Source of the DNA: Bacteroidales bacterium
GTDB taxonomy: Bacteria > Bacteroidota > Bacteroidia > Bacteroidales > UBA932
Reading direction: 5' to 3'
DNA: 64,000 nt
Assembly (NCBI GenBank): GCA_012839605.1
Contig: DUNA01000031.1
Span: forward strand, 1-64,000
Below the pieces are notes generated by a model. That model made no database searches. It was not told the origin of the DNA and was given only the letters and a program-made list of their open reading frames with translations. Of this stretch, positions 61,328 to 62,578 are shown piece by piece. Within the stretch, counting starts at the first letter, position 1. Every line of letters begins with the position of its first letter. The position numbers were made by a program, and so were the translations under genes.

Positions 61328-61411
61328 GCCCAGGTGGTGGAATTGGTAGACACGCCACTTTGAGGGGGTGGTGCCGGTTACGGTGTGCAAGTTCGATCCT
61401 TGTCCTGGGCA
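61328..61411 (+). tRNA. tRNA-Leu (anticodon GAG)
   Basis: GCCCAGGTGGTGGAATTGGTAGACACGCCACTTTGAGGGGGTGGTGCCGGTTACGGTGTGCAAGTTCGATCCTTGTCCTGGGCA; class II tRNA with variable arm, anticodon loop TTGAGGG. Confidence 0.95.
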
Positions 61412-61419
61412 CAAAAAAA

Positions 61420-61456
61420 AAGTCAAGTTGCTGCATATTAGCAACTTGACTTTTTT
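61420..61456. terminator. Bidirectional intrinsic terminator between tRNA-Leu and the small-ORF operon
   Basis: AAAAAAAAAGTCAAGTTGCT-gcatatt-AGCAACTTGACTTTTTT; 13-bp perfect stem flanked by A-tract and T-tract. Confidence 0.9.
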
Positions 61457-61460
61457 ATAG

Positions 61461-61556
61461 CTAGTGAAAGTAGCAGTCCCAAAATAAATAAATTACAATA
61501 CCGACAATGCCTGTTACGAAAGCAATCATCAATACTTTTTGCCAATCTATTGCCAT
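61461..61556 (-). CDS. Tiny (31 aa) predicted single-TM peptide
   Basis: Manual translation MAIDWQKVLMIAFVTGIVGIVIYLFWDCYFH*; start overlaps the upstream ORF stop by 10 nt. Confidence 0.55.
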   Translation of the reverse strand: MAIDWQKVLMIAFVTGIVGIVIYLFWDCYFH

Positions 61557-61657
61557 GTTACTAAAGCATAGAAAACTACAATAAGCCATATTGCAGCAAA
61601 ACCCGCCAATCCCAGGAGGATACCTGTCAGCCATTCAGAACCAGTTACGTTTTTCAT
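61547..61657 (-). CDS. Tiny (36 aa) predicted single-TM peptide
   Basis: Manual translation MKNVTGSEWLTGILLGLAGFAAIWLIVVFYALVTWQ*; ATGA overlap with upstream ORF. Confidence 0.6.
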   Translation of the reverse strand: MKNVTGSEWLTGILLGLAGFAAIWLIVVFYALVTWQ

Positions 61658-61776
61658 ACAGTTTTGATAAAATTAAAATAAGAAAACAGGGCTATGAGTA
61701 CCATAATAACCTGCAGTACGCCCAAAACAATACCTGAGCCGGCCAGTCCTGAAAAAACACCTATTATCCATTCCAT
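61654..61776 (-). CDS. Small (40 aa) predicted single-TM peptide
   Basis: Manual translation MEWIIGVFSGLAGSGIVLGVLQVIMVLIALFSYFNFIKTV*; starts 7 nt after the lipoprotein stop codon. Confidence 0.6.
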   Translation of the reverse strand: MEWIIGVFSGLAGSGIVLGVLQVIMVLIALFSYFNFIKTV

Positions 61777-61783
61777 AATACTA

Positions 61784-62509
61784 TCAGTCTTTAACACAAC
61801 GGACAGAAAATCCACAAATCTTATTTCCGGTGCTTTGCACTACCTGCTCCATGTTATAAAGTATGCGCCGGATATAAATAAATTCAGTGCTACTCTCTGT
61901 AGCGCTCCACCAATGGCCACAAATACCCAGGTTTTTAAAAGGGGTATTTGGAGAACAATACCCACCCGGCAAAGCAGAAAAACGGGATTTGTTCCTATAC
62001 GGCGGATAATCGTCATTTCCCACAGCACCTTCTTCTGACGATTCATTCCACCCGTACATACTTGCCAGAGATTTGGCAACCTTGGCACGTCCACCACCTG
62101 TTGACCCGTCGTAGTTGAAACCGTTGTCTGCCAGATAGTTTGTCAGTTGGTCCCATTCGTCGTCACTAGGAAGATGCCAGCCTTTGGGACAAATACCTTC
62201 CTCTTTCATGAGGGCTGACCAATTGTACAGCACACCATACTTTTTGTAGTTCTCTGTGTTTTTTGCTTCTTTAACGTCAGTGCCTTCGTAACCGTACACG
62301 TAATAATAAGGTTCGGTCCAGGAACCATCTGTTGACAAACTTACAGAAGGCAGATAGGCCAGGTTTTCTGCCATCCATGTCTGCTCACCAATAGTGATTG
62401 TTTTGTAGATTTTGTAATCGCGACTATCTATACATATACAAGGAATTATATGTGGTGTACAGGAATACAACAAGATACCCGCTAGCAAGATAAGGATCGT
62501 GTTTTTCAT
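61784..62509 (-). CDS. FISUMP-domain (Fibrobacter succinogenes major paralogous domain) lipoprotein
   Basis: 241 aa; lipobox-like MKNTILILLAGILLYSC, TITIGEQTWMAENLAYLP, YGVLYNWSALMKEEGICPKGWHLPSDDEWDQLTNYL, FSALPGGY and WWSATES motifs. Confidence 0.88.
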   Translation of the reverse strand: MKNTILILLAGILLYSCTPHIIPCICIDSRDYKIYKTITIGEQTWMAENLAYLPSVSLSTDGSWTEPYYYVYGYEGTDVKEAKNTENYKKYGVLYNWSALMKEEGICPKGWHLPSDDEWDQLTNYLADNGFNYDGSTGGGRAKVAKSLASMYGWNESSEEGAVGNDDYPPYRNKSRFSALPGGYCSPNTPFKNLGICGHWWSATESSTEFIYIRRILYNMEQVVQSTGNKICGFSVRCVKD

Positions 62510-62578
62510 CTCTGTAAATTTTAAGTTAGTATTTAGTAGTAAATGTATGTATAATAATCCGAATACCTACCTTTGTAC

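Follow-up and report, generated by a model that had tools for sequence, protein, structure and literature searches.

Three putative small membrane protein genes form an overlapping chain behind a FISUMP lipoprotein gene in a small clade of Bacteroidales

The DNA analyzed here, a 64-kb stretch that we refer to as the window, carries on its minus strand a gene for a FISUMP lipoprotein that is followed by three short, overlapping open reading frames (ORFs), sm1, sm2, and sm3, and by an intrinsic terminator. Sequence comparison points to these ORFs as a genuine, previously unannotated, and narrow orphan set, restricted to one clade within what was searched. We lean toward the reading that they are three genuine small-protein genes, co-transcribed with the FISUMP gene and translated by termination-reinitiation, and that the products of sm1 and sm2 would oligomerize in the inner membrane.

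Results

The first gene of the operon (61784..62509, minus strand) encodes a 241-aa protein with the lipobox LLYSC that is a clear member of the FISUMP (Fib_succ_major) family. It matches Pfam family PF09603 (E = 3.1e-37; 129.1 bits against a curated cut-off of 33.9) over positions 1 to 187 of the 187-position profile, and it also matches TIGR02145 (E = 9.4e-39; 133.9 bits, cut-off 41.65). A PDB sequence search found no relative of this protein, and its predicted fold had a pLDDT of 37. The sm1 ORF (61654..61776, minus strand) starts 7 nt past the FISUMP stop codon and encodes a 40-aa single-helix peptide (MEWIIGVFSGLAGSGIVLGVLQVIMVLIALFSYFNFIKTV). The sm2 ORF (61547..61657, minus strand; 36-aa single-helix peptide MKNVTGSEWLTGILLGLAGFAAIWLIVVFYALVTWQ) shares an ATGA overlap with sm1, and the sm3 ORF (61461..61556, minus strand; 31-aa single-helix peptide MAIDWQKVLMIAFVTGIVGIVIYLFWDCYFH) overlaps sm2 by 10 nt (ATGGCAATAG). 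Each ORF sits in the -1 frame of the preceding one. This succession of a 7-nt gap, an ATGA overlap, and a 10-nt overlap had been reported in a preliminary description of the sequence, and all of its coordinates and junctions were confirmed. The start of sm3 is not certain, because the same frame can also be read from an ATG farther upstream, at 61634; the resulting 57-aa ORF (61461-61634, minus strand) overlaps sm2 and is likewise open in the relative UBA5433, which is described below.

The stem of the terminator (61416..61456, minus strand) begins 4 nt past the end of sm3. It consists of 17 bp closed by a 7-nt loop and is followed by a T run, with a fold z score of -5.6, in agreement with the strong terminator originally proposed after the third ORF. 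A tRNA-Leu(gag) gene (61328..61412, plus strand) converges on the operon, and its 3' end touches the terminator. Because the terminator is symmetric, with A and T runs on the two flanks of its stem, it may end both the FISUMP-operon transcript and the tRNA-Leu transcript, and it is probably used by the latter as well. The neighborhood, as named by eye from ORF lists, comprises an M1-type aminopeptidase, FISUMP, tRNA-Leu, a 169-aa protein, and a UbiE-like methyltransferase. About 30 nt ahead of the FISUMP start lies TACATTTA (62540-62547, minus strand), which is close to the Bacteroidales -7 promoter consensus TAnnTTTG; the block that can be aligned between the window and UBA5433 begins downstream of it.

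Each of the tiny ORFs encodes a hydrophobic helix, as had been noted at the outset, with a best 19-residue mean hydropathy of 2.57 for sm1, 2.47 for sm2, and 2.53 for sm3. In size and hydropathy they match bacterial single-helix small membrane proteins (<50 aa, one spanning helix), and we predict that their products are single-helix inner-membrane proteins. The AlphaFold2 model of sm1 is a helix over residues 2 to 39 (pLDDT 88), a result that any such sequence would be expected to give. Glycines fall at positions 6, 10, 13, 15, and 19 of sm1 and at positions 12, 16, and 19 of sm2, and such spacing favors close packing in other membrane helices. The two peptides have the motif EW[IL]xG[IV]xxGLAG in common, and their alignment score was matched by only 1 of 5,000 shuffles, which argues that sm1 and sm2 are paralogs that arose by duplication. 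When sm3 was compared with either of them, shuffles equaled its score about half the time, and by this measure sm3 is unrelated to both.

Searches of the peptides against Pfam, NCBIfam, PHROGs, and PADLOC gave no significant family match. The sm3 peptide reached only E = 0.0075 and 16.6 bits against FixQ/CcoQ (PF05545; cut-off 29), no oxidase gene was recognized nearby, and we set this candidate aside as what looks like generic helix similarity. In size and in having a single helix, sm1 to sm3 do resemble the small membrane-enzyme subunits CydX, CcoQ/FixQ, and KdpF; unlike those, they have no recognized oxidase or transporter gene beside them. Two reports describe bacterial single-helix small membrane proteins such as Escherichia coli YohP (27 aa) as shorter than 50 aa and lacking a catalytic domain (PMC12719787, PMC7549839). 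Within that description sm1 to sm3 are alike, each having fewer than 50 aa, one hydrophobic helix, and no catalytic domain, whereas they show no sequence relation to these proteins and form an overlapping chain of three behind a lipoprotein gene.

Three short helical peptides encoded consecutively, with glycine-spaced helices and a mobile, clade-limited distribution, could also represent a membrane-active toxin set, either a multipeptide leaderless bacteriocin or type I-like depolarizing peptides, directed against competitors or the producing cell itself. The coupling to a lipoprotein gene counts against such a role, since it does not resemble the arrangement of type I toxins, and an Rfam search found no antisense RNA family. 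Leaderless bacteriocins such as aureocin A70 and garvicin KS are likewise encoded as three or four consecutive peptides of 30 to 40 aa; however, the aureocin A70 peptides have a net charge of about +4 to +5 and a GRAVY of 0.5 to 0.7 (PMC6131525), whereas sm1, sm2, and sm3 have net charges of about -0.5, -0.5, and -1.4 and, with a GRAVY of 1.25 to 1.70, are far more hydrophobic. The set also has no leader, no recognized exporter, transport, or immunity gene adjoining it, and no match in Pfam, NCBIfam, PHROG, or PADLOC. The bacteriocin-like role floated in the preliminary description is thus disfavored for want of net positive charge, leader, exporter, and immunity gene, and we give the toxin reading as a whole little credence; subunits of a membrane complex and regulators, the other roles suggested there, are still candidates.

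The chain is more than chance would be expected to give: when the 323-nt trailer was shuffled 20,000 times with its dinucleotides preserved, three chained hydrophobic ATG ORFs never occurred (two chained ORFs occurred 74 times), and a second chain of such ORFs was not found on either strand of the window. For comparison we used 13 genomes of the genus, including the window's own, and two of the others carry all or part of the trailer: Bacteroidales bacterium UBA5433 (a metagenome-assembled genome; contig DIRP01000003.1) and isolate AS18jrsBPVS_13 (JAAZIA010000025.1), both known from metagenome assemblies only. UBA5433 has the same FISUMP gene followed by three ORFs of the same lengths, with both overlaps and the terminator stem intact, and its peptides are 95% (sm1), 86% (sm2), and 94% (sm3) identical to those of the window. 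There are 19 substitutions between the two trailers in 316 nt, and all three frames remain open. The codon changes comprise 9 synonymous and 9 nonsynonymous ones (dN/dS of ~0.25 overall); most of the nonsynonymous changes exchange one hydrophobic residue for another, and sm1 and sm3 show no second-position change. When the same substitutions were placed randomly, the frames stayed intact with as few amino acid changes in 1.5% of trials. This p value is modest, and the selection test is limited to 19 substitutions, because all three ORFs are present in only two genomes. The pattern, which comes from one genome pair, supports coding, and the low divergence may itself keep the frames intact if the block was exchanged recently. 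The claim that the ORFs belong to a real, translationally coupled operon gains support from the three frames and both overlaps kept in UBA5433 and from the codon-like change.

The trailer showed no RNA structure beyond that of shuffles (z = +0.34), and in an Rfam search of it only the adjoining tRNA matched, so that a structured noncoding RNA is disfavored. A single three-helix protein made by programmed -1 frameshifting was also considered and rejected. No slippery heptamer was found by eye at the junctions, and there is no excess fold in the trailer; on these grounds, reinitiation is preferred over -1 frameshifting.

In AS18jrsBPVS_13, a loss of ~100 nt between the GAATGG...GG segments that sm1 and sm2 have in common has joined the two into a single in-frame hydrophobic ORF of 30 aa (MEWITGILLGLAGLAAIWLIVVFYALVTWQ), which starts 7 nt past the FISUMP stop; this in-frame fusion also implies that sm1 and sm2 are paralogs. 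The sm3 ORF is broken there by a stop around codon 6 (TAA after MAIDW) and is divergent beyond. The aminopeptidase gene of this genome is 92% identical to that of the window, compared with 78% for UBA5433. Because this places AS18jrsBPVS_13 beside the window's genome, the simplest reading is that the common ancestor of all three had the three ORFs and that the state in AS18jrsBPVS_13 is a secondary loss. Frame-disrupting variation, which had been named beforehand as speaking against the ORFs, is therefore present in this relative and absent in UBA5433. The partial loss suggests either that one helix of the sm1/sm2 type is enough in AS18jrsBPVS_13 or that the set is decaying.

Decay could also have produced the set itself, if a longer gene for a three-helix membrane protein had been split by frameshifts into three ORFs. 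The -1 frame of each ORF relative to the preceding one, the three consecutive helices, and the further decay in AS18jrsBPVS_13 are all compatible with such an origin. Against this, an ATG lies exactly at each ORF junction, all junctions are kept in UBA5433, and sm1 and sm2 are a duplicated pair. Nor did searches of the genus, of the sampled order genomes, or, with sm2, of 85,462 species genomes turn up a longer gene that could be an intact parent. A split gene is thus an improbable source of the three ORFs.

Beyond these relatives, the trailer was not found in the other ten genomes of the genus, though FISUMP genes are common there, which ties it to a single FISUMP gene within a small clade. 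The four-gene order, whose conservation the preliminary description had proposed as a check, is accordingly kept in UBA5433, partly lost in AS18jrsBPVS_13, and missing from those ten genomes. Among the FISUMP genes of the genus examined with their downstream DNA, only the one at 61784-62509 carries a peptide chain; the leading gene belongs to PF09603 and the trailer does not, and one genome of the genus (G008) has a FISUMP gene adjoining the same tRNA with none of the trailer. The small ORFs are not general companions of FISUMP lipoproteins, and with a single such gene bearing the trailer, any functional link to FISUMP as such would be weak. No relatives of sm1 to sm3 were found in ~390 genomes of the order, sampled genomes of the family, or viral contigs, and a search with sm2 only found none outside the clade among 85,462 species genomes. 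Searches of plasmids (with sm1), phages (with sm2), viral contigs (with all three), 60 relatives, and the ~390 order genomes gave weak matches only. Each match that was inspected proved to be either a helix within a larger protein or a short stretch of open frame that had no FISUMP gene in its neighborhood.

The block that aligns between the window and UBA5433 runs from ~16 nt ahead of the FISUMP start codon to the 3' end of the tRNA. Within it, the trailer has a dS of 0.15, and the FISUMP alignment has a dS of 0.14 over its first 60 columns and 0.085 over its fourth 60 (180-240), far below the 0.43 to 2.9 of nearby genes; the simplest reading is that the FISUMP gene and its trailer were exchanged between lineages as a block, as seems to have happened here. 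Selection on synonymous sites could instead account for the low dS of the block. Recent exchange would also allow a trailer that is translated and functionless, its peptides born by chance or hitchhiking and kept along with the FISUMP gene. The narrow distribution, the loss of sm3 and fusion of sm1 and sm2 in one of three species, and the low dS of the block fit this reading, which we nevertheless consider unlikely given the three-helix chain in 0 of 20,000 shuffles, the dN/dS of ~0.25, and a rearrangement in AS18jrsBPVS_13 that keeps a hydrophobic ORF open at the corresponding position.

Between its conserved ends, the middle of the FISUMP gene differs strongly between the two genomes (dS of 2.5 and an 11-residue indel), which suggests segmental conversion among paralogs. 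Such a diverged middle is what conversion would be expected to leave in a genus with many FISUMP paralogs, where there are 1 to 17 FISUMP domain matches per genome. Some Fib_succ_major lipoproteins are targets of diversity-generating retroelements (PMC4159848). No RVT_1 match indicative of a diversity-generating reverse transcriptase was found in the window's genome (92% complete), and none above the cut-off was found across the genus; we do not assign this FISUMP protein to that class of targets.

The surroundings of the tRNA-Leu gene vary among the relatives. In AS18jrsBPVS_13, FISUMP genes form a tandem array adjoining it (L116:2000-9433). In UBA5433, a tyrosine-recombinase-like ORF (519 aa; L115:5437-6996), which directly follows the terminator and the final 3' bases of the tRNA-Leu, and a transposase-like ORF (405 aa; L115:7328-8545), both named by eye, stand in place of the tRNA-Leu body. 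The 3' end of the tRNA-Leu gene looks like an integration site.

Discussion

In the explanation that we favor, translation of the FISUMP gene would continue by reinitiation at the junctions through sm1, sm2, and sm3, and the resulting peptides would insert into the inner membrane. Because the glycine-spaced helices of sm1 and sm2 are suited to tight packing, they would most likely assemble into a helix bundle, either as homo- or as hetero-oligomers, and be made together with the surface lipoprotein. The sm3 peptide would be an accessory that can be lost, and the set as a whole would be young and clade specific, moving or being exchanged with its FISUMP gene. Against this explanation, sm3 is broken in the sister species, and no functional domain or partner was found. 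More adventurously, and as a long shot, the three peptides might make up a new heteromeric inner-membrane complex, acting as a small channel or as a helix bundle by which export of the co-translated FISUMP protein is sensed or gated, in a cassette that is exchanged with a variable surface protein.

The three ORFs appear to be ordinary in kind and reveal no new mechanism. What they would provide is a clean case, argued from sequence alone, of small-protein genes that fall under the usual gene-calling limits; the argument for their reality draws on the overlapping junctions, on the terminator, and on two related species, one of which conserves the frames while the other has lost part of the set. 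They would also be a tractable case of membrane peptides that are young and confined to one clade, with a duplication linking two of the three.
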